A stretch of DNA of 20,831 nucleotides. Source: a virus. Below the pieces are notes generated by a model. It was not told where the DNA came from. It searched no databases and was given only the letters and a program-made list of their open reading frames with translations. The DNA lies in IMG/VR virus record IMGVR_UViG_3300020267_000016, positions 1-20,831 of that record; one strand, given 5' to 3'. The stretch's first letter is position 1. Each line of letters starts with the position of its first letter. Both the position numbers and the translations under genes were made by a program. This document shows positions 5,371 through 18,331 of this stretch, in pieces.

Positions 5371-7311
5371 ATGAATAATTATTTACCTACAGATTACCAA
5401 AACTTTATTGCCTTGTCACGGTATGCTCGTTGGAAAGAAGACGAACAAAGACGTGAAACATGGCCCGAAACAGTTGGCAGATACTTTGATTATATGTCTG
5501 ACCATCTTAGCAAAAAGCACGGCTATAACCTTAAAGACGGATTACGCAACGAACTAGAGGAAGCCGTGCTCACACAACAAATAATGCCATCCATGAGAGC
5601 ATTGATGACTGCAGGTCCAGCGTTAGACCGTTGCCATGTTGGTGGATATAACTGTTCTTACATTCCTGTAGACAGTCCTCGTGCCTTTGACGAGTGTATG
5701 TACATCCTAATGTGTGGTACAGGTGTTGGCTTCTCAGTTGAACGTAACAACATTGATAAGCTTCCTATTGTAAATGAAGCATTTCATGAAACAGATACAG
5801 TTATCAAGGTGGGTGATAGCAGACCCGGTTGGGCAAAGTCTCTACGTGAAATGATTGCTATGTTGTACGCTGGTCAGATTCCTAAGTGGGATGTATCAGA
5901 GGTACGTCCTGCAGGGGCAAGGCTCAAGACTTTTGGTGGACGTGCATCAGGTCCAGCCCCTTTGATTGACCTGTTTAATTTCTGCATTGACATCTTTAAA
6001 AATGCAGCAGGACGTAGGCTATACCCTATTGAGTGCCATGACCTGATGTGTAAGATTGGTGAAGTTGTGGTAGTAGGTGGTGTACGTAGGTCAGCCCTTA
6101 TCAGCCTGTCCAATCTAAACGATGACCAGATGAGCCATGCTAAATCAGGACAGTGGTGGGAAAATGAAGGTCAACGTGCATTGGCAAATAACTCTGTAGC
6201 ATATAAAGAAAAGCCTCAGATGGGTACATTCATGCGTGAGTGGCTGTCTTTATACGAATCTAAGTCTGGTGAACGTGGTATCTTTAATCGTGAATCAGCT
6301 AAGGTGCAAGCAGCAAGTAATGGACGGAGAGATGCAGACCATGAGTTCGGTTGTAACCCTTGTTCAGAAATTATTCTACGTCCTTATCAGTTCTGTAATC
6401 TTTCAGAGGTGGTTGTACGTGCTACAGATAACTTGGAAACATTAGAAAACAAAGTTCGTCTGGCAACCATTCTTGGAACATTACAAGCTACACTGACAGA
6501 CTTTAAATATATACGTAAAATCTGGAAGGATAACACAGAAGAAGAAAGACTTCTTGGTGTATCTCTTACAGGTATTTTAGACAATCAATTAATGTCTGGT
6601 AAGAGTGCTCTGTTTGGTATGAATATTAAAACTACTTTACAAACTCTAAAGGATAAAGCAATTGAGACAAACAAACATATGTCTAAATCTCTTGGAATAC
6701 CACAGGCTGCAGCAATTACTTGTGTCAAACCATCAGGTACAGTATCTCAGTTGGTAGACAGTGCATCAGGTATTCATGCTCGTCACAACCCATATTACAT
6801 TCGCACTGTACGTGGTGATAATAAAGACCCACTTACGCAGTTTATGATTGCACAGGGTATTCCTGCAGAGCCAGATGTAATGAAGCCTGATAGCACAACA
6901 GTCTTTAGCTTCCCTATGCAGTCACCTGCAGGGGCTGTATGTCGTACAGATATGACAGCTATTGAACAGCTTGAATTATGGTTGATGTATCAACGTCATT
7001 GGTGCGAACATAAACCGTCTGTTACAATATCTGTTAAAGAAGAAGAGTGGATGGATGTAGGCTCGTGGGTGTATAAACACTTTGACGAGGTATCAGGCAT
7101 CAGCTTCCTACCTTTTAGTGAACATACGTATCAGCAAGCACCTTATCAGGACATTACAAGCATAGAGTATGACGAGGCCAAGATAAAAATGCCTGAGAAG
7201 ATTGACTGGTCTTTGCTTTCAGACTTTGAAAAAGAAGATACTACATCAGGTGGACGTGAGTTAGCTTGTACTGCAGGGGTCTGCGAAGTTGTAGATTTGG
7301 ATGCAGCATGA
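5371..7311 (+). CDS. nrdJ: Adenosylcobalamin-dependent (class II) ribonucleotide reductase
   Basis: A 646-residue enzyme that makes deoxynucleotides for phage DNA synthesis, starting from a coenzyme B12 radical. The barrel shows MSMRALMTAG, the first redox cysteine (C95 in YNCSYIP), GTGVGFSVE, and the active-site strand NPCSEI (N329, thiyl radical C331, E333) followed by FCNL (C342), the spacing of 11 between the two cysteines as in the Lactobacillus leichmannii enzyme (C408, C419). CVKPSGTVSQLVDSASGIHAR supplies the phosphate-binding end. The tail ELACTAGVCEVVDL has the C-x4-C pair (C633, C638) that passes electrons. It is shorter than the 739-residue L. leichmannii enzyme. Ribosome site AAAGGG lies at about 5359-5364. 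No separate small subunit is needed or seen. Confidence 0.95.
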   Translation: MNNYLPTDYQNFIALSRYARWKEDEQRRETWPETVGRYFDYMSDHLSKKHGYNLKDGLRNELEEAVLTQQIMPSMRALMTAGPALDRCHVGGYNCSYIPVDSPRAFDECMYILMCGTGVGFSVERNNIDKLPIVNEAFHETDTVIKVGDSRPGWAKSLREMIAMLYAGQIPKWDVSEVRPAGARLKTFGGRASGPAPLIDLFNFCIDIFKNAAGRRLYPIECHDLMCKIGEVVVVGGVRRSALISLSNLNDDQMSHAKSGQWWENEGQRALANNSVAYKEKPQMGTFMREWLSLYESKSGERGIFNRESAKVQAASNGRRDADHEFGCNPCSEIILRPYQFCNLSEVVVRATDNLETLENKVRLATILGTLQATLTDFKYIRKIWKDNTEEERLLGVSLTGILDNQLMSGKSALFGMNIKTTLQTLKDKAIETNKHMSKSLGIPQAAAITCVKPSGTVSQLVDSASGIHARHNPYYIRTVRGDNKDPLTQFMIAQGIPAEPDVMKPDSTTVFSFPMQSPAGAVCRTDMTAIEQLELWLMYQRHWCEHKPSVTISVKEEEWMDVGSWVYKHFDEVSGISFLPFSEHTYQQAPYQDITSIEYDEAKIKMPEKIDWSLLSDFEKEDTTSGGRELACTAGVCEVVDLDAA

Positions 7312-7955
7312 GTAACATTGTAAACATACCACCATGTAAAGTTTGGGTGAGAAAAGAATACCTAACAGACCATCAGTCTGGATATGGTGAATTTGTAGAA
7401 GGGTATTGGGTAACGGCAAAGTCGTTACCCGGTAGAACCTTTTACTTTGAGACTTACCTTCCTGCATATGCAGCTATGTATGATAAACTTCCTATATCTG
7501 CATTTGTATCAGAGCCTAAGACACCAGACCCTGACCTTCCTCTGGATGAGTTACAGTTCTGGAACTGCATGGACTATGGTGTAACTGCCATTGAAAAGCA
7601 GTTTATAGGTTCTATGGGTTTTCAAGCTCGAACAAAGAGGCATGGAATGATAGGTGGTAAATATCTTTTTACTCTGGATAATCTGCATGAAAACATTCAA
7701 CAGATTGATTGTAATGTAAGTGAAGTTCCACAGGAACATAAATCATTTAACTGCCTTGAACTTGAGAATGGACAGTATTGTTTATATCCTAACAACAGAA
7801 TGAGAATATATGATGTATCTCTTTCACCTAAAGATGTTAAAATACCAGACTTTAAAGTATCTACAGAATATTATGAAGTAGAAAATCCTTTCTCAGATTG
7901 GGGAACACTGGGAGACACTGAAGAATACTTTTGGAAAACGGAGAATGAAGAATGA
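7308..7955 (+). CDS. Conserved hypothetical phage protein
   Basis: A 215-residue protein beginning MSNIVNIPPCKVWVRKEYL. The start at 7308 overlaps the reductase stop as ATGA; an upstream in-frame ATG at 7266 would add only 14 residues read from within the reductase gene and is unlikely. The protein is rich in aromatic residues (YGEFVEGYWV, FYFETYLPAYAAMYDK, LQFWNCMDYGV), no membrane segment or catalytic motif is evident, and the acidic end FSDWGTLGDTEEYFWKTENEE suggests a soluble protein. I recall similar proteins in marine phages without a known function. A virion or host-takeover role cannot be decided. Confidence 0.7.
   Translation: MSNIVNIPPCKVWVRKEYLTDHQSGYGEFVEGYWVTAKSLPGRTFYFETYLPAYAAMYDKLPISAFVSEPKTPDPDLPLDELQFWNCMDYGVTAIEKQFIGSMGFQARTKRHGMIGGKYLFTLDNLHENIQQIDCNVSEVPQEHKSFNCLELENGQYCLYPNNRMRIYDVSLSPKDVKIPDFKVSTEYYEVENPFSDWGTLGDTEEYFWKTENEE
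7408..7430 (+). repeat. Inverted repeat GGGTAACG / CGTTACCC
   Basis: Eight perfectly paired bases (7408-7415 with 7423-7430) around a seven-base loop, inside the coding region about 100 bases after its start. No U-run follows, so it is not a standard terminator; it could act on translation, bind a protein, or be chance. Confidence 0.35.
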
Positions 7956-8556: not shown

Positions 8557-9333
8557 ATGTTTATAGAAAAAAGACCAGTAATTTATATTGGATATGATTC
8601 AAGGGAGCATGAAGCCTATGAGGTATTACGTAAATCAATTCTTAGATACAATCAAAAGTTTGATATCATACCTCTCGTACAACCAGCCCTTCGTAGAGCA
8701 GGGTTGTATAGGCGTACTATTCGTTTTGATAGTAATGCTGAGTCTGTCACTAGGATAGATGAGTTTGATGGTAGACCTTTTAGTTCTGACTTTACCTTTA
8801 CTAGGTTTTTAGTTCCTGCTATTAACCAGTACGATGGTCTTGCATTGTTTATGGATGCAGATATGTTTGTACGTTGGGATATTGAAGAACTGTTTGAAAA
8901 GTTTGGTAATCGTGAGGAGTTTGCTGTACAGGTAGTTAAACATAATTACAGACCCAAAGAAGGATTAAAGATGGATGGTCAGATACAGCAGAACTATAAT
9001 CGCAAGAACTGGTCAAGCTTTATTCTTTGGAATTGTTCACATCCTTCTAATTTAAACTTAACTGTGGACGATGTAAATACAAAAACAGGAAGTTGGCTAC
9101 ATGGTTTTTCTTGGCTATCTGATAACGAAATTGGTTGTCTTGACCATGAATGGAATTGGTTAGATGGTTGGTCACCAGAAGCTATTGTACCTAAAAATGT
9201 ACACTTTACCACAGGTGGTCCTTGGTTTGAGGATTGGAAAGGTGAACGTAAATCAGACACAGAATACGCTGGAGAATGGCAAGCATTTAAAAGCAAAGTA
9301 TTTATGGACAAACTTGTAGGAGAAGTAATATAA
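8557..9333 (+). CDS. Glycosyltransferase, GT-A fold (GT8-like)
   Basis: A 258-residue enzyme expected to move a sugar from a nucleotide sugar to an acceptor. It begins with a Rossmann-like strand PVIYIGYDSREHEAYEVLRKSI, has FTFTRFLVPAI before the metal-binding DxD motif LFMDADMFV (D100, D102), a middle with conserved tryptophans, and VHFTTGGPWFEDW (H216) near the end, resembling the HxxGxxKPW metal and phosphate motif of GT8 proteins. No membrane segment is seen. The substrate is unknown; it could decorate host surface sugar or virion proteins. The stop overlaps the next start as TAATG, linking it to the three-domain protein. Confidence 0.82.
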   Translation: MFIEKRPVIYIGYDSREHEAYEVLRKSILRYNQKFDIIPLVQPALRRAGLYRRTIRFDSNAESVTRIDEFDGRPFSSDFTFTRFLVPAINQYDGLALFMDADMFVRWDIEELFEKFGNREEFAVQVVKHNYRPKEGLKMDGQIQQNYNRKNWSSFILWNCSHPSNLNLTVDDVNTKTGSWLHGFSWLSDNEIGCLDHEWNWLDGWSPEAIVPKNVHFTTGGPWFEDWKGERKSDTEYAGEWQAFKSKVFMDKLVGEVI

Positions 9334-11627
9334 TGTATATTTTTGTGACATCATTTAGTGAATCTGGATACCACGAGTATGCTAAAAATATGCTTGAAAG
9401 TGTAGTAGAAAAATGGAATCCAAAACACTTCAAGCTTTATGCTTACTACCATGACTTTGATATCAACTCTGTTGATGCACCTCAGTCTGAAACAATTGAG
9501 TATAGAAACCTTAATGATATTGAGGAGATGCTTCAATACCGTGAACGTATGAAACAGCATGACGGTACAAATGGTGGTACACAAGCATATAACTGGCGTA
9601 TGGATGCAGTTAAATGGTGTCACAAAGTATACGCTTTGTCTGACCTTGCATTTGAAATGATGGAAGAAGAGTATGACGAAAGTAACTGGATGATTTGGTT
9701 GGATGCAGATACAGTAACTACCAAACGACTAGACATAAAACAGTTTCCTAAGTGGCTTCCTGATAAAGCAGACTTAGTACATCTTGGCAGAAAGGATGCA
9801 GATTACAGTGAAACAAGTTTCCTTGGTTTTAACCTCTCTTCTCATAATACTTGTAGTATTATTGCTGATTTCCGTGGTGCATACACTATTGGAGAAACCA
9901 TTTCATATAGAGAATGGCATGACGGATTTATCTTTGAACGGCTCCTCAACATCTACAAAGCCCACGGGATGGTTACCAAAAACTTATCTGAGCACGCTAG
10001 AGGACTAACAGCTTTTGCTCAGTCACCTTTGTCAGAGTATTTTAACCATTACAAAGGCAATCTAAAAAAGAAACTTAGTAACACAGAAGTTTCTCCAGAT
10101 GTAACAGGTCCACGTAGATACAAACAACTTGCAGATATTGTACGTTTCTATAAGCCAAGTACCATTCTTGAAACAGGTACATGGAATGGTGGACGTGCAG
10201 TAGAAATGTCTCTTGCTGCTTTTGAAAATACAGACAAAGTTCATTACATTGGCTTTGATTTATTTGAAGAAGCAACAGAAGAGTCTGATGCATATGAAAT
10301 GAATAGCAAAGCACACAACATGGTAGAAGCTGTTGAAAAAAGATTAGAAGATTTTCAAGTTCGTATGATAAAGACAGGCAAAGAATTTACTTTTGAATTA
10401 CATAAAGGTGATAGTAAAAAAACATTACCTGCTTGTAAGTCTTTAAAGAAAGCAGACTTTGCATATATAGATGGTGGACATTCTTATGAAACTGTAAAGG
10501 CAGATTGGGAAGCCGTTAAAAAATATATTCCTGTTGTTGTCTTTGATGATTTCTTTTCTAAAGACAAAGAAGGAAACCTTCCTAAAGAAGAACATCTTGG
10601 TGTAAACAAACTTATGAAGGAGATTGAAGCGTATGGAAAAGTCGTATTACCTAGTGCTGACGGTGTTCTTGGTGGTGGCATTACACATCTTTGTTTTGTA
10701 GCAAACAAAAAAGGTTTGGCTAAACTTCCTGAAGAATTAACTCGTGTACCTATCGTAGTAACTCCAAAAGATTCACGTCCTAAACAAGAAATTATTGACA
10801 ATGTAAAAGCAAACTCAAAACTTATAGAAGATTTTGATTTTATTAAAACAAGTAAAGTTAATAACGAGACAGCAATTATTGTCTCTGGTGGTACTATTGA
10901 CTTTAAAAAATTAAAGCAACGTATTAAGGCAACAAATAACAAAGTCTTTTGTGTTAAACATAGCTATCCTAAATTATTAAAAAATGGTATTAAACCTTTT
11001 GCCTGTGTTATCCTTGACCCAAGACACATTGAAGGTGTTAGCACACATAATATTATTCGTAAAGATTTATTTAAAAAGATAGATAAAAGTACAATCTTTC
11101 TTGTAGCTTCTATGACTGACCCTTCAGTTACTAAACATCTTCTTAGTAAAGGTGCAAATGTAAAAGGATGGCAAGCATACTCAGATGCATTACGTGATAT
11201 GAATATTAAGAATAAAATTGTTGTAGATAAAGAAACAGGTATTAACGAGGGTTCCACACTTATTACTGGTGGCACTTGTGCAGCAATGAGAACACTTGCT
11301 ATTGGACATACACTTGGTTTTCGTAACTTTGAATTGTTTGGTTTTGATTGTTCTGTAGATGAAGTAACAGAAGAAATGAAAAAAGAAACAACAGACACAG
11401 AAAAAACTAAACCTAAATACATGAAAGTAGAACTATCAGGTAAACACTTCTGGACAACAGGAGAACTACTTGCTATGGCTCAAGATTGTGAAAAGTTATT
11501 TGACCAAACTGAAATTGACATGGGTATTATATTCCACGGTGAAGGTACTCTATGTGCTCAAGTGTTTGAAAACTCAATGCGTGGAAAAGAAAAACATTAT
11601 TCAGAGTTACTAAATGTCGCAGCTTAA
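9333..11627 (+). CDS. Three-domain fusion: glycosyltransferase, methyltransferase, MptE/DUF115-like
   Basis: A 764-residue protein with three recognisable parts. Residues 1-245 look like a GT-A glycosyltransferase (MYIFVTSFSESGYHEYAKNM; DxD at D124, D126 in MIWLDADTV). Residues about 262-460 are a SAM methyltransferase of the Methyltransf_24 type: ILETGTWNGG (E280), YIGFDLF (D309), DFAYIDGGHSYE (379-386) and VVFDDFF (D405, D406). Residues about 508-745 resemble the DUF115/MptE-like fold of Maf flagellin glycosylation proteins: AIIVSGGTID, GIKPFACVILDPR, GGTCAAMRTLAIGHTLGF and ELFGFDCS. Together they suggest building or capping of a methylated sugar on the host surface or virion. Domain naming is from motifs; substrate is unknown. 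It overlaps the terminase gene by 14 bases. Confidence 0.8.
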   Translation: MYIFVTSFSESGYHEYAKNMLESVVEKWNPKHFKLYAYYHDFDINSVDAPQSETIEYRNLNDIEEMLQYRERMKQHDGTNGGTQAYNWRMDAVKWCHKVYALSDLAFEMMEEEYDESNWMIWLDADTVTTKRLDIKQFPKWLPDKADLVHLGRKDADYSETSFLGFNLSSHNTCSIIADFRGAYTIGETISYREWHDGFIFERLLNIYKAHGMVTKNLSEHARGLTAFAQSPLSEYFNHYKGNLKKKLSNTEVSPDVTGPRRYKQLADIVRFYKPSTILETGTWNGGRAVEMSLAAFENTDKVHYIGFDLFEEATEESDAYEMNSKAHNMVEAVEKRLEDFQVRMIKTGKEFTFELHKGDSKKTLPACKSLKKADFAYIDGGHSYETVKADWEAVKKYIPVVVFDDFFSKDKEGNLPKEEHLGVNKLMKEIEAYGKVVLPSADGVLGGGITHLCFVANKKGLAKLPEELTRVPIVVTPKDSRPKQEIIDNVKANSKLIEDFDFIKTSKVNNETAIIVSGGTIDFKKLKQRIKATNNKVFCVKHSYPKLLKNGIKPFACVILDPRHIEGVSTHNIIRKDLFKKIDKSTIFLVASMTDPSVTKHLLSKGANVKGWQAYSDALRDMNIKNKIVVDKETGINEGSTLITGGTCAAMRTLAIGHTLGFRNFELFGFDCSVDEVTEEMKKETTDTEKTKPKYMKVELSGKHFWTTGELLAMAQDCEKLFDQTEIDMGIIFHGEGTLCAQVFENSMRGKEKHYSELLNVAA

Positions 11628-12117
11628 TGATAAGCAAGAACAGTTTTGTCAGAACTATGTCCTCAGTCGAAATGCTACGAAAGCGGCAAAGGCTGCAGGA
11701 TATAGCGAGTCCTCTGCCTATAACCAAGGTCATAGACTTTTACAAGAAGAACGAATACAAGAAAGACTTAAAGAACTCACGAATGAAATGGTGACCAATG
11801 TAGATGTAGTCAGTGAGATTGAAAAGCAATATGAAGTAGCTCGTAATGGTGGACATGGGACAACAGCTTTGAAAGCTTTAGAGTTGTTGTCTCGTGTAAG
11901 AGGTAATAATACAGATGTAGAAGACCAGACAACAGAAAGCCTAGAGGAAGATATAAAAGGAATTATGCAAGCTCTAGGCTTTGAACAATGTTTTCTTCTT
12001 TTTGCAGAAGCTTTCCCAGATGAGTTTGATAATGAAGAAGAGGATGACGAACTACTTCTTACCGAAGAACTTAGTAGCACTACGGACACCGAAGCTGGCA
12101 GCTACGATAACTCCTAA
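11614..12117 (+). CDS. Terminase small subunit
   Basis: A 167-residue protein that should recognise the phage DNA for packaging and hand it to the large subunit (not in this window). The N-terminus LNDKQEQFCQNYVLSRNATKAAKAAGYSESSAYNQGHRLL is a textbook Terminase_2 helix-turn-helix, followed by a helical middle (IQERLKELTNEMVTNVDVVSEIEKQY) and a very acidic tail (DEFDNEEEDDELLLTEE). The ribosome site is weak and the start overlaps the fusion gene by 14 bases, so translation is probably coupled. It is the last + strand gene; its 3' end runs 66 bases into the opposing holin-like gene. Confidence 0.9.
   Translation: MSQLNDKQEQFCQNYVLSRNATKAAKAAGYSESSAYNQGHRLLQEERIQERLKELTNEMVTNVDVVSEIEKQYEVARNGGHGTTALKALELLSRVRGNNTDVEDQTTESLEEDIKGIMQALGFEQCFLLFAEAFPDEFDNEEEDDELLLTEELSSTTDTEAGSYDNS
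11936..11982 (+). repeat. Perfect 11-base inverted repeat inside the small terminase gene
   Basis: AAAGCCTAGAG (11936-11946) and CTCTAGGCTTT (11972-11982) are exact reverse complements, separated by 25 bases. It could be a protein-binding site, a packaging site or a weak two-way transcription stop at the meeting point of the two gene blocks. Confidence 0.6.
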
Positions 12118-13175: not shown

Positions 13176-14408
13176 TTATTTTTGTAACGGTTTATAATTT
13201 ACTGGTGTATAGGTTTGTAAAGGTTTAAATATATCTAAACCTGAAATACGTGGCTCTTTAATTTTTTTACCAGTTTTAATATCTACTACTGTACCATCTG
13301 GAAGATACAATAAACCTTTTTCTCTATCTAATCTTGAACCTATAGGGCTTGGTGTTGTACCATAAAGATTTGCAATAAATGCATCACGTTGTGCAGCATC
13401 TGCTAAGTCTATAGTTTGAGTACCTACACCACGTTGGTAATAATCATCAGATGTTATTGGAGGTTGTGCAACTTCCCCTGATTGTAGTGTACCGCTTCCC
13501 CCTGCTATACTAGCCAATCCACTATCATTATCACCATCACCCATAGGACTTGGACCTGTTCCTACGATACGACCATCTGGCATTGTTACATAACGTACAA
13601 ATTGCTGTCCACTTCCACTAGCAGTTGCATATGTTGGTATTCCTCCACGTTGAATAGCATTTTGCATAGCACTAATATTTCTTTGTTTAACCTTATCAAA
13701 AATAGAACCGATTAAACCGGGTATTTTACTAGGATTATTTAATTGATTTAATTGTTGTTGTGCTAGTACATTAAGTCCTTGTCTACCTTCAGAGGATAAA
13801 AAATCACCACCAGCCCCAACTGTAATAGCAGATGTCTGCTCTTCATCATATATACTTGGGTCAAATCCGCCATAGCTTACCTTATCAGGTCTACCAGTAT
13901 CTCTACTTGGTCCTCTATCAACAACATCTAAACCAAAACTTGCTGCCAATTCTGCATCTACATCATCATCGTCATATGCTCCACCATCGTCAGAACCAGA
14001 GCTACTTGAACTACTGCTTGAGCTAGAGGAACTACTTGAACTACTACTACTACTACTATCATTGGAGCTACCACCTTGATATGAACCACCACCCCCTTGT
14101 AAAGACATTAGGCCACCCGGACCACGATTAGGTTTACCATCAAGAGAACCATACAGATTTGCATCAATAAGAATTTTTTGTTCAGCAGGAGTAATATAAG
14201 CAAGTTCTGCAACTACATGGTCAGGAGAAGACAACCACTGTTTAGGTACAGTAACTGTTTCTGTATCACCTAAATAATTAATTATGCCATTTACTTTTTT
14301 AGGTTTAACTTTTTTATTCAGACGTATATCTTTACCTGAAACAGCTCTACTTCCATATACTGGAATACCAGCTAAACCTTTAGTATCTGTTGTTTTTTTC
14401 TTTGCCAT
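13176..14408 (-). CDS. Virion-region protein with 20-serine tract, unknown function
   Basis: A 410-residue protein, mostly low-complexity and lacking membrane segments. Residues 1-100 are ordered in character (GIPVYGSRAVSGKDIRLNKK, VTVPKQWLSSPDHVVAEL); then a Gly-rich stretch, an uninterrupted run of 20 serines (118-137) and an acidic GSDDGGAYDDDDVDAE. The rest is rich in Gly, Ser and Gln (TVGAGGDFLSSEGRQGLNVL) and ends YTPVNYKPLQK. The flexible linker suggests a virion, fibre or scaffold-type protein, but no family is recognised. The start overlaps the end of the 1307-residue gene (TAATG), so it is in the structural operon. Confidence 0.7.
   Translation of the reverse strand: MAKKKTTDTKGLAGIPVYGSRAVSGKDIRLNKKVKPKKVNGIINYLGDTETVTVPKQWLSSPDHVVAELAYITPAEQKILIDANLYGSLDGKPNRGPGGLMSLQGGGGSYQGGSSNDSSSSSSSSSSSSSSSSSSSSGSDDGGAYDDDDVDAELAASFGLDVVDRGPSRDTGRPDKVSYGGFDPSIYDEEQTSAITVGAGGDFLSSEGRQGLNVLAQQQLNQLNNPSKIPGLIGSIFDKVKQRNISAMQNAIQRGGIPTYATASGSGQQFVRYVTMPDGRIVGTGPSPMGDGDNDSGLASIAGGSGTLQSGEVAQPPITSDDYYQRGVGTQTIDLADAAQRDAFIANLYGTTPSPIGSRLDREKGLLYLPDGTVVDIKTGKKIKEPRISGLDIFKPLQTYTPVNYKPLQK
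13998..14057 (-). repeat. Poly-serine coding tract with an (AGT)6 core
   Basis: Twenty consecutive serine codons. The first six are AGT (14040-14057) and the remaining 14 mix AGT, AGC, TCA, TCC and TCT. Confidence 0.9.
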
Positions 14409-17400
14409 TATTTTTCTATCCTTGTATTATAAAGTCTCTGATATAAATTGTAAACACTATCAGGTATGGTTGTTAGTGGTCCTTGAAATGTTTCTCTGGG
14501 TTTAGGTTCTGTTGGAACAAAAACATTTTGGTCTGCAGAAAATAACATTTCTAATTCACTAGGCTGTAGCTGTCTTTTTTTACCGCCCATAGTTATATCT
14601 TGTGTTAAACCTTCTACTGTATAACCAACATCTTTATATAATTGTATCACAGAACGTAATTCTTCAAAACCTTCAAACCTTATTTTTTGTGCATTAATAT
14701 ATTCTTCTTCTACTTCTTCAGGTGTAGCATTAGGATTATTTAATATTTGTTTTAATCTATTGTCAGCTTTTTTTATTTTAGATATGGGAGTATATATGTT
14801 TCTACTTATTCCTGCAGAAAGGTCTTGATTAGTTCTTCTTATACCTAATAAAGCAGGAACATCTATATCACCTTCTGATATAGTATATAAACTATCTGAC
14901 AGTCCTTTGTTGTAATAATTTTTTCTTCTTTCCATATATTTAAGATAACTAGGGTCAAACAAATCTATAAGTTGTTTACCTAATGCTTCTGATATTCCCA
15001 TTTCAGGAGAAGAAAAATCTTGTTTTCCTTTAACAATATCTATGATACCTTGAGTAAACATAGATGGTTGAACCATAGGATAAACAGTTTGTTCTAATGT
15101 TCCAAATAATAATTTATTTTGTTCATATTCAGATAAAGGTTCTCCTTCTAATAAACCTTGATGTATAGCTTTTGCTCCTACTTTAATAATACTATAAGGG
15201 TCATACGAACCTAAATATAAAGTGGGTGCAATAACATGACCTGTCTTTTTATCTTTTTGTATTGGACCTAAATAAATTCTATTTGTATTCATATAGTAAG
15301 GTGCATTAAGATAAGTCATTGCTTTATCTTGCTCATCTGTTATTCCAAATGCACTCATTGTCATGCTTTGTGCAACATCACCAAATGAACCTGCAACACC
15401 CATTCCTACTACTCTACCTGCTAGTGCCTGAAGTAAAGCTTCTCTATTAAAATTACTATCACTAGAATTAAATGCTGCTGTTTTAGCATCATCATAAGTA
15501 TATTTTACAAGGTTCTTAGTTGTTCGTACCATTTCTGCAGGGAAAGACACAAAGTCTCCAAAAGGAGAATAACCAAGTCCTTTAATAAACTTAGGAACAA
15601 GTCTATAGTTTGGCATCATATCTCTTGTTCTTTGTGCTGCCATTTGTTTTAAAGTATTATTATCCATATTAGGATATACTTTTCTTAAATAATTTTTTGT
15701 GTTTTCAAAATGTATAATTTTAAAAAAATCATCTTCTGCTTGATAAATGTCAGCAGCTTTTTTACCTACATTTTTTGCTTTTCTTAATGCAGTTATATCG
15801 TCAATATATTTTCCTGAATCTTCTGATGCAACTTTTAAATTTCTACGAACAATACCTAATCCAATACCTGAATTTGTAACACCTAATTCTACATACTCAG
15901 CTAAAGTTTCTGCTAGTTCTTTATTATTTTTATTTAAAAGTTGACTACTTGTTGTTTTTACTGCTTGTTTTAAAGATGTACCTGTTGGCAATATACCATT
16001 AGCTGTAAGCATAATAATATTTCCCATCATATTTTTTCCATGAGTAGGAATATTTGCTACAGTTTTTGCATATTGAGTAGCTGCTTGAGCACCAACAAGA
16101 CCTCTAAAAAATTTATTTTGAAAAATCTCTGGTAAAGTAACATCAATACCTTTTTTAATTGCATCTGCATATGCTTTGTCTGCATATACTTCTTGTAAAG
16201 GATTAATAATTTGTGGAAGTTTTATTGACTTACCTTCATTTAATGCACGAGAATCTTGATTATATTTTTGTAAAGATATTTTTCCTTGTTGTTTATATCT
16301 CTCAAGTGTTTCTCTTCCTTTGTCTCCAGATAATTTTACAAATTTATTTGCACCTTTAGTAATCCACTCAAGTTTTTCTACACCAACTCCTGAAGAAAGA
16401 TTTACTAAACCAGCTTGAGCTTCTTTAATTGCTTGGTCTTCAGTTAAATTAGGATTAGCTTCTCTAATTTTTCTTACTCTGTTTTGAAATTTAACACTTA
16501 GGTCACCTGCAATTTCTTCCATAAATTTATAGTCTGCATTTAACTTTGCAAGTTTAACATAAGTATTAACAAAGTTTTTTCTTGGGTCTTTTACTTCTCC
16601 CATAAGTTCACGTATAGAAACATCAATATCTTGCCTCTGAAGTAGAGGGTCATTAGAAGATGTGTATCTTCCTTTATTAGCAAGACTTTGCATAAAATTT
16701 GTAAAAGTATCTACATCTTCTATTCTTGAAATTTCTTCTAAAGTTTTTTGAACTTCATTGTTTGTAATTCCTACATTTCTTTGGTTTGCTACATATTGTG
16801 CTGCTCTTTCTATAACATCGTCAGTTAAGTTTTCTTTTAATGTTTTACCCTCTGCAGAACTAAGCTCACCTCTTGCAACTCTAGTATTAATTTCTTTAAC
16901 TTTAGAAAGATTTTCTTTACGGTTTAAAAGTTTTTTTGAAAGTTCTTTTTTATATGAAGGACTATCAAAAACTTTATAAGACCTATTAATATAAAAACCT
17001 TTATTTTTATCTATTATACCTTTTAATTTACCTGCCCCATAAGGCAATGCATCTGAAGCCTCATCTATTTTATCTCTCATTTCTTTAAGAATAGGATATA
17101 AGTCTGGAAATTTAGATTGCATATATTGTTGACCAGCTTCACTATATTGTAAATAATCATTTGAAGCACGAAGAATTATTTCTTCTGCTTTATCTCTAGA
17201 AGATGCTGGTAAATTTTTTACTCTTTCTGTAATTGCTTTATCAAGTTCAATAGCTAAAGCATCTGCACGAATAACTGCAGCTTCTTCTGCTGTTTCTCTT
17301 TTTATTAAAGAAGCTAAAAACAAATCATCTGTTCCCATACGAGAACTAAAAAGCTGTGCTGTTTTGCGTCTTGCAGGTTTAGTTATTTTGTCTAGTTTAT

Positions 17401-18331
17401 TAATGTAAGGACGTGCAGCTTTTTTAGTTGTGTCTCCTATTTGTGTAACTTTATTTTTAACTGGAGACAAAACACCTGTTCTATAACTTTTAGCTATAGA
17501 AGATGCTATAGTTCCTGCACTATGTATTCCTGCACCAAAAGCTCCTTCTATAGAAAGGTTACGAATAAAGGCTTCTAAATAATCTTGAGCTTCTACATCT
17601 TCAGGATTTTTTGCTAAAGCTTCTAATCTTTTAGTTGCTTCCTCATTACCAAAAATAGCAGAACTTATTTCGTCATAAATACTAATACGTGGGTCTTCAA
17701 TAAGAGTAGCAGCAGAAGCATAGCCAACTCCATATCCACCTGCAGTGGCAGCAGTCTTAGCTTTTTTGGACAGCCTACTTAACTTTGCTGCCATCATTGG
17801 TGTTTGTGCAACTAATCTACCAGTATTAAGAATAGTACTTACAGGTAAAGCATAAGAACCAATTACCCCAGATATTTCTTCTGCAGTATTGGTTTCCGGG
17901 TCAAGAAATAATTGTATTTCTTTTCTTGCACTTTCTGGAACAAAATGTTTATAAGCTTCATCTAAGTTATCAATTGTTTCATCAGGTAAAAAAGCTTGAC
18001 CTAAAAACTTTCCTGCTCTTGCTGTCTGCCTACCCACTACTCTTGCAGTTCTTTGAGTATATTCATTAATACCTATTCTAGGTTCTTTAGTAAAATAATT
18101 TATAAAATCTTCTCTTCCAGTTGTAAAACCAGTTTTATCAAAAAGTTCATTAGCTTGTTTAAAAGCTTCTCTATAATCTTGGGCTGCTCCTTTTACATCT
18201 TCAACAGAAACTTCATTAGCTTTTGCAACTGCACTAATATCAGCCGCAGTTATACTACCTTTTTGAGCTTTAATACCAGCAAGCTCAGAAGATATATTAT
18301 TATATGTTTTAGATTTAAAAGATAATGCCAT
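14408..18331 (-). CDS. Very large virion protein, probable internal/DNA-ejection protein
   Basis: A 1307-residue protein, by far the longest here. I find no catalytic motif. It is helical and charged, with hydrophobic, Gly/Ala-rich stretches near the N-terminus (about 152-172 EISGVIGSYALPVSTI, 195-211 ATAGGYGVGYASAATL, 260-280 IEGAFGAGIHSAGTIASSIA) and later hydrophobic areas. Length and composition resemble the large internal virion proteins of T7-like phages (gp15/gp16), which leave the capsid and span the host envelope during DNA entry, and it sits in the virion gene block. That role is inference from size, composition and place. The gene is visibly more AT-rich than the replication genes. 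Start is two bases after the previous stop; the ribosome site is weak (AGGTGA). Confidence 0.65.
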   Translation of the reverse strand: MALSFKSKTYNNISSELAGIKAQKGSITAADISAVAKANEVSVEDVKGAAQDYREAFKQANELFDKTGFTTGREDFINYFTKEPRIGINEYTQRTARVVGRQTARAGKFLGQAFLPDETIDNLDEAYKHFVPESARKEIQLFLDPETNTAEEISGVIGSYALPVSTILNTGRLVAQTPMMAAKLSRLSKKAKTAATAGGYGVGYASAATLIEDPRISIYDEISSAIFGNEEATKRLEALAKNPEDVEAQDYLEAFIRNLSIEGAFGAGIHSAGTIASSIAKSYRTGVLSPVKNKVTQIGDTTKKAARPYINKLDKITKPARRKTAQLFSSRMGTDDLFLASLIKRETAEEAAVIRADALAIELDKAITERVKNLPASSRDKAEEIILRASNDYLQYSEAGQQYMQSKFPDLYPILKEMRDKIDEASDALPYGAGKLKGIIDKNKGFYINRSYKVFDSPSYKKELSKKLLNRKENLSKVKEINTRVARGELSSAEGKTLKENLTDDVIERAAQYVANQRNVGITNNEVQKTLEEISRIEDVDTFTNFMQSLANKGRYTSSNDPLLQRQDIDVSIRELMGEVKDPRKNFVNTYVKLAKLNADYKFMEEIAGDLSVKFQNRVRKIREANPNLTEDQAIKEAQAGLVNLSSGVGVEKLEWITKGANKFVKLSGDKGRETLERYKQQGKISLQKYNQDSRALNEGKSIKLPQIINPLQEVYADKAYADAIKKGIDVTLPEIFQNKFFRGLVGAQAATQYAKTVANIPTHGKNMMGNIIMLTANGILPTGTSLKQAVKTTSSQLLNKNNKELAETLAEYVELGVTNSGIGLGIVRRNLKVASEDSGKYIDDITALRKAKNVGKKAADIYQAEDDFFKIIHFENTKNYLRKVYPNMDNNTLKQMAAQRTRDMMPNYRLVPKFIKGLGYSPFGDFVSFPAEMVRTTKNLVKYTYDDAKTAAFNSSDSNFNREALLQALAGRVVGMGVAGSFGDVAQSMTMSAFGITDEQDKAMTYLNAPYYMNTNRIYLGPIQKDKKTGHVIAPTLYLGSYDPYSIIKVGAKAIHQGLLEGEPLSEYEQNKLLFGTLEQTVYPMVQPSMFTQGIIDIVKGKQDFSSPEMGISEALGKQLIDLFDPSYLKYMERRKNYYNKGLSDSLYTISEGDIDVPALLGIRRTNQDLSAGISRNIYTPISKIKKADNRLKQILNNPNATPEEVEEEYINAQKIRFEGFEELRSVIQLYKDVGYTVEGLTQDITMGGKKRQLQPSELEMLFSADQNVFVPTEPKPRETFQGPLTTIPDSVYNLYQRLYNTRIEK

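Follow-up and report, generated by a model that had tools for sequence, protein, structure and literature searches.

The gene at positions 9333-11627 (+) of the virus record IMGVR_UViG_3300020267_000016 from the IMG/VR database, analyzed here over its 20,831 nucleotides (the window), encodes a 764-amino acid (aa) protein that almost certainly combines three domains with the folds of GT-A glycosyltransferases, S-adenosylmethionine (SAM)-dependent O-methyltransferases and Maf/MptE proteins, respectively. Together with the adjacent upstream gene for a GT8-like glycosyltransferase (8557-9333, +; 258 aa), this fusion gene is very likely to constitute a glycan-synthesizing pathway. The chances appear evenly balanced that this is a two-gene phage pathway that functions late in infection and probably decorates virion proteins.

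The presence of the three domains in a single frame, proposed earlier from the letters and open reading frames (ORFs) of the window alone (hereinafter, the sequence-only reading), is borne out by an intact ORF of 764 codons that starts with ATG and contains no internal stop. The search for phages with the same domain order that had been suggested along with this proposal was productive. Single-sequence patterns retrieved 12 IMG/VR contigs with a full-length fusion, 152 confirmed relatives were obtained with an alignment-based pattern set, a further 70, mostly with 45-80% identity to a query from the sister clade (see below), are more distant, and a relative of the last third of the protein is present in at least 531 contigs. 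Removal of identical copies leaves 117-118 distinct full-length fusions, of which 117 were used for residue counts, and the same order of domains is kept in 118 copies. The only fusion that is broken away from the contig edges is found in locus L229 (4165-6510), with domains 1-2 and domain 3 in separate frames, probably because of a frameshift or a sequencing error. Given that 118 distinct copies preserve the order and only this one locus is split, an assembly artifact or chance fusion of genes that are separate in related genomes, which had been named as a finding that would refute the proposal, is ruled out. All three domains evolve under purifying selection in both clades, with the ratio of non-synonymous to synonymous substitution rates (dN/dS) in the range of 0.09-0.18. 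No fused relatives were detected among 50,697 deposited phage records at the sensitivity of a tblastn search with the second and last thirds of the protein.

The fold assignments of the sequence-only reading hold for each part, being supported by Pfam for domains 2 and 3, and by structure comparison for the GT-A, O-methyltransferase and Maf/MptE folds. Profile searches against the PDB gave no significant match for any of the thirds, and no Pfam family covers the first third. Residues 1-254, modeled with AlphaFold2 on the basis of 56 diverse relatives, show a clear GT-A fold (predicted local distance difference test (pLDDT) 90.2, predicted template modeling score (pTM) 0.88) that matches BoGT6a (GT6; 4ayl, Z 14.0, root-mean-square deviation (rmsd) 3.5, 184 aligned), glycogenin (GT8; 6eql, Z 13.6) and the capsid glycosyltransferase of PBCV-1 (2p72, Z 13.3). 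Domain 1 encompasses residues 1-245 (9333-10067, +) and contains the DxD motif D124-A-D126 (9702-9710, +), which is DAD in 72 of the 72 copies of the window's clade. It has a standalone homolog, Mosig_00189, with 27% identity. Profile E-values for the homologs in Mosig and ct7QV12 are circular because both sequences were in the alignment; independent support comes from tblastn (E 2e-10 and 4e-10, respectively).

Domain 2 (residues 256-465; 10098-10727, +) is a class I SAM-dependent O-methyltransferase that matches the Pfam family Methyltransf_24 at residues 279-406 (E 3.9e-12; 47.4 bits, with a curated cut-off of 26.3), whereas the score for TylF, 13.6 bits, is below the cut-off of 23, so that this domain is not assigned to the TylF family. 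In the SAM-binding motif E280-TGTWNGG-287 (10170-10193, +), E280, G282, W284 and G287 are invariant among the 117 full-length copies, as is D309. The presumed metal triad consists of D380 (10470-10472, +), which is Asp in 72 of the 117 copies and Gly in 45, and D405-D406 (10545-10550, +); the complete triad is found in 69 of the 72 copies of the window's clade, in which the methyltransferase is likely to be active. The full-length AlphaFold2 model of the fusion, with 12 close sequences as the input, is of low confidence (pLDDT 51.6), with domain 1 poorly modeled; its middle third matches cation-dependent O-methyltransferases including SpnH, MycF and CalS11 (Z about 9-10). These sugar O-methyltransferases share the fold of domain 2 and presumably the spacing of the Asp triad, but are standalone antibiotic-tailoring enzymes with about 15% identity to the fused domain.

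Domain 3 (residues 471-745; 10743-11567, +) is the most conserved third of the protein, as judged by per-domain identities. Pfam identifies PF01973 (MptE-like, Maf_flag10) at residues 487-675 (E 3.5e-13; 50.1 bits, cut-off 34.6), and among the NCBIfam families, PseD is the nearest (E 2.1e-9). The best structural match of the low-confidence full-length model is Maf (5mu5, Z 17.7), which aligns with model residues 260-746, that is, domains 2 and 3 jointly. The archaeal MptE protein MjHPPK (8sd5) matches domain 3 at residues 475-736 (Z 15.2, rmsd 3.3, 197 aligned).

The GT8-like protein belongs to phrog_28018 (E 4.3e-54) and contains a DAD motif at residues 100-102 that is conserved in about 100 relatives. 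Its Pfam score for Glyco_transf_8 (E 0.002, 18.2 bits) is below the cut-off of 24.3, so the gene is denoted only as GT8-like; its homolog Mosig_00188 passes this cut-off with 30.9 bits. There is no profile match between the GT8-like protein and domain 1 (best E 0.05). The two genes are invariably linked: the GT8-like gene lies 5' of the fusion on the same strand in 111 of the 111 copies with room for it, at a distance of 60 nucleotides or less in 101. This fixed synteny strongly supports the small pathway of the two genes that the sequence-only reading had envisaged. Downstream, 109 of 110 copies have a co-oriented gene for the terminase small subunit (11614-12117, + in the window), which overlaps the fusion in 70 and is located 1.1-2.0 kb away in 39. 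In the window, the TAA stop of the GT8-like gene overlaps the ATG of the fusion (TAATG), and the fusion overlaps the terminase gene by 14 nucleotides, so that joint translation of the three genes is probable.

A maximum-likelihood tree of 46 representative fusions shows a clean two-way split with 100/100 support, and the 117 full-length fusions are accordingly divided into the window's clade, with 72 members, and a sister clade with 45. The SAM-binding residues and domain 3 are nearly invariant across both clades. In the sister clade, D380 is replaced by Gly and D406 by Asn or His (GDN/GDH), and in a subclade of 12 of these 45 copies, NTN takes the place of the DxD motif of domain 1. All 42 sister-clade loci with room contain an additional gene (200-250 aa) that overlaps the fusion stop or starts at it (for example, 5869-6534 in locus L220); it carries the motif DYGCGKG, and a match to Methyltransf_23 was found in 18 of the 18 members scanned (best E 1.9e-8). 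When the loci from the window's clade were searched with a profile of this family, no member was found. Thus, in this sample, an intact fused methyltransferase and a separate methyltransferase are mutually exclusive (a METHYLTRANSFERASE exchange). The split in the tree is a single evolutionary event and hence not a statistical proof of replacement.

The following mechanism can be envisaged. With host nucleotide sugars as donors, one sugar would be added by the GT8-like enzyme and another by the GT-A domain of the fusion, yielding a short glycan, and the Maf-like domain 3 might add another sugar or link the glycan to the acceptor. Domain 2 would O-methylate the product, more likely on the sugar than on the protein, and a methylated sugar is a plausible product. 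In structural terms, the methyltransferase and PF01973 halves could represent a Maf-type core, with the GT-A domain as an addition to it. No CMP-sugar synthetase (PF02348) was found in 16 large phage records, so the donors would come from the host. Because the genes would be translated jointly with the terminase small subunit, the pathway can be expected to act late, with a virion protein as the likeliest acceptor. The choice of a virion protein, to which we assign a probability slightly short of even, is favored because the coupling with the terminase is fixed and because homologs adjoin structural or terminase genes in ct7QV12, ctDrO704 and CcrColossus.

Several observations weigh against this scheme. 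Gene position alone is no proof of a virion target, and genes for nucleotide-sugar synthesis were not found in the records of these phages that were scanned. The full-length model is of low confidence, and its match to 5mu5 has an rmsd of 12.7 across the domains. Furthermore, with the triad lost in the sister clade and the DxD motif lost in the subclade while purifying selection is maintained, domains 1 and 2 can serve as non-catalytic scaffolds.

The sequence-only reading had offered three targets, the host surface, virion proteins and DNA, among which virion proteins gain from the position of the genes and the translational coupling with the terminase. The main rival explanation is modification of the host surface, whereby a lipopolysaccharide (LPS) or envelope glycan would be altered during infection, blocking the adsorption of rival phages or preventing the loss of progeny to debris. 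Genes for GT8, sialyltransferase-fold and methyltransferase proteins are characteristic components of loci for LPS and capsules, and GT8-like homologs are found in similar company in other phages: in S-SCSM2R, the distance to KdsB and KdsA of the CMP-Kdo pathway is three and four genes, respectively, and in CcrColossus, the homolog is near a heptosyltransferase-like GT9 protein. However, the Pfam families identified in the most complete relative scanned include none for membrane anchoring, a flippase, a ligase or an acyl carrier, and the late, terminase-coupled position fits virion assembly better, given that the exclusion of rivals pays off early. This explanation therefore appears unlikely, if worth keeping in view. 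Modification of flagellin or another host protein, with the Maf-like enzyme redirecting or completing host glycosylation and so altering motility or receptor exposure, would agree with the flagellin-modifying closest relatives of domain 3, Maf in structure and PseD in NCBIfam. It is nevertheless quite improbable: the large C-terminal helical flagellin/chaperone-like domain typical of Maf seems to be missing, with only about 90 residues left after PF01973, and the nearest isolates by DNA polymerase infect SAR11 and roseobacter-type marine bacteria, the closest being the 54-kb pelagiphages HTVC115P, HTVC104P and HTVC103P (46-47% identity), which infect SAR11. SAR11 bacteria lack flagella.

Hypermodification of DNA, in which a modified phage base would be glycosylated and methylated as a protection against restriction, draws on the ability of phage-encoded glycosyltransferases to hypermodify DNA, as stated in a reference quoted in PMC12619734, and on a weak match of domain 2 to phrog_2675, annotated as 'DNA methyltransferase' (E 1.2e-6). 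The fold matches of domain 2 are to small-molecule and sugar O-methyltransferases rather than to DNA methyltransferases. The hydroxymethylase of the thymidylate synthase type (PF00303) is absent from the 16 large relatives, some of which may be incomplete records, while 9 controls were positive, and this disfavors DNA as the third of the proposed targets, leaving it a very small probability; a search for TET/JBP gave no match in the relatives, but the control genomes were silent as well. Finally, PF01973 might function as a pterin/thiamine-type pyrophosphokinase, as in MptE, within a small-molecule pathway that makes a cofactor or a soluble metabolite. The similarity of MjHPPK to domain 3 is the main point in its favor, but the invariable linkage to two GT-A glycosyltransferases, the lack of any pterin or thiamine gene among those seen and the placement of domain 3 nearest PseD in NCBIfam make this the least probable option, one that can hardly be expected to be correct. 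Decoration of virion proteins also has a more elaborate variant, namely, Maf-type protein O-glycosylation by phages, whereby a nonulosonic acid-like glycan would be assembled and methyl-capped on virion proteins by a single polypeptide, the fused methyltransferase having become structural in one clade, where an independent gene replaces it. We regard this variant as speculative and, on balance, unlikely.

Several other features of the window and of its relatives are notable. In the sister clade, an Hsp20 gene lies just upstream of the GT8-like gene (L220:2304-2732), and Hsp20 is also encoded by HTVC104P. Locus L220 (PAKP01000072.1) is a 33-kb phage contig in a metagenome-assembled genome of Sneathiella, a weak hint at the host given that the binning may be wrong; it is as long as IMG/VR 2788500214_000001 (L227), and the fusion proteins of the two are identical. 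The 54.5-kb relative G002 (L221-L223) encodes one predicted protein with a Pfam match to Cpn10 (GroES-like) and another with a match to the ribosome-rescue factor ArfA, an unusual cargo for a small phage. In the window, the gene at 7266-7955 (+; 229 aa), which immediately follows the class II ribonucleotide reductase gene, matches phrog_3704 'ferredoxin' (E 2.8e-102) but no Pfam or NCBIfam family, so that the name looks doubtful. The 1307-aa product of 14408-18331 (-) has only 22-23% identity to its positional counterpart in the relatives, compared with 52-61% for the flanking genes, which points to a virion protein that either evolves very fast or has been replaced.

No description of the fusion family was found in the literature, in a search that left subscription journals mostly outside. 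The fold classes themselves are known; there appears to be no earlier description of the architecture, of the fixed synteny or of the exchange of methyltransferases, and, as far as the literature searched shows, the same applies to Maf-type protein O-glycosylation in phages. If the proposed pathway is real, these uncultured phages, a common aquatic group, would make their own machinery of the Maf-like class, which is known chiefly from flagella, and would possess a compact single-chain enzyme for both sugar transfer and methylation. Decorated virions would bear on phage persistence and on the escape from defenses. The two clades would amount to a natural experiment on when a separate gene can take over a methylation step from a domain of a fusion.

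The closest known systems include Maf, in which a Rossmann domain that is degenerate but bears methyltransferase-like motifs precedes a pfam01973 domain with the Cst-II-like (sialyltransferase) fold and a C-terminal helical domain (PMC11339370). In these flagellin O-glycosyltransferases (Magnetospirillum Maf, 5mu5; PseD), which are defined by the transfer of CMP-nonulosonic acid to Ser/Thr of flagellin, the methyltransferase-like Rossmann domain is followed by PF01973, in the same order as domains 2 and 3 of the fusion. Because of this shared order, the joint match to 5mu5 and the proximity of PseD, the fusion is, judging by the models and families combined, better read as a GT-A domain joined to a Maf-like core, with the methyltransferase intact in the window's clade, than as a chain of three parts without a relationship to one another. 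Unlike Maf, the phage protein has the extra N-terminal GT-A domain, an intact SAM motif and metal triad in place of the degenerate Rossmann domain, and little sequence after PF01973, modeled at low confidence, and its gene is tied to the GT8-like gene and the terminase. We do not assign the fusion to the Maf family because the inter-domain match is loose and the C-terminal domain seems shortened. MptE (6-hydroxymethylpterin diphosphokinase, 8sd5) shares the PF01973 fold, but domain 3 is embedded in a 764-aa fusion, in a glycosyltransferase context, with no pterin pathway seen.

The view that the three parts usually occur as separate proteins holds for domain 1, which stands alone in Mosig_00189 and about 80 relatives, but not for the other two parts, the combination of which is the layout of the Maf core (PMC11339370). 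In the Pelagibacter phage Mosig EXVC030M (Mosig_00185 to Mosig_00191), the domain 1 homolog adjoins the GT8-like homolog Mosig_00188 (41%), in a cluster that also includes FkbM methyltransferases and a sulfotransferase; among loci of this type, the standalone domain 1 homolog occurs with a GT8-like gene in 70 of the 71 with room (directly adjacent in 45). The difference from the window is that these are separate genes of a 141-kb myovirus, with methyltransferases of another family, and no PF01973 was found in the proteins scanned; profile comparison did not support a relationship between the neighboring methyltransferases of Mosig and ct7QV12 and domain 2. In other large phages, unrelated to that of the window, unfused counterparts are also found: in CcrColossus (gp126-gp130), the GT8-like gp129 is near the MptE-like gp126 (31.8 bits, just below the Pfam cut-off), and in DLP_6 (AAY80_199-202), genes for a methyltransferase, a GT8-like protein and a GT29 sialyltransferase-like protein stand in a row. 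The separate methyltransferase family of the sister clade adjoins GT8-like homologs in DLP_6, ctDrO704 and CcrColossus. Fused forms exist in UniProt as well: the 714-aa protein A0A6J7X5Q0 of an uncultured Caudovirales phage, labeled by its methyltransferase part alone ('Methyltransferase domain containing protein'), aligns in Foldseek over essentially the whole fusion with 28% identity (E 1.8e-21 for domain 1), and A0A6J5PVH5 is a GT-A plus MptE-like protein. The GT8-like protein, the GT-A domain, the methyltransferase and the PF01973/sialyltransferase fold are thus a recurring set, of which the window contains the most fused form.

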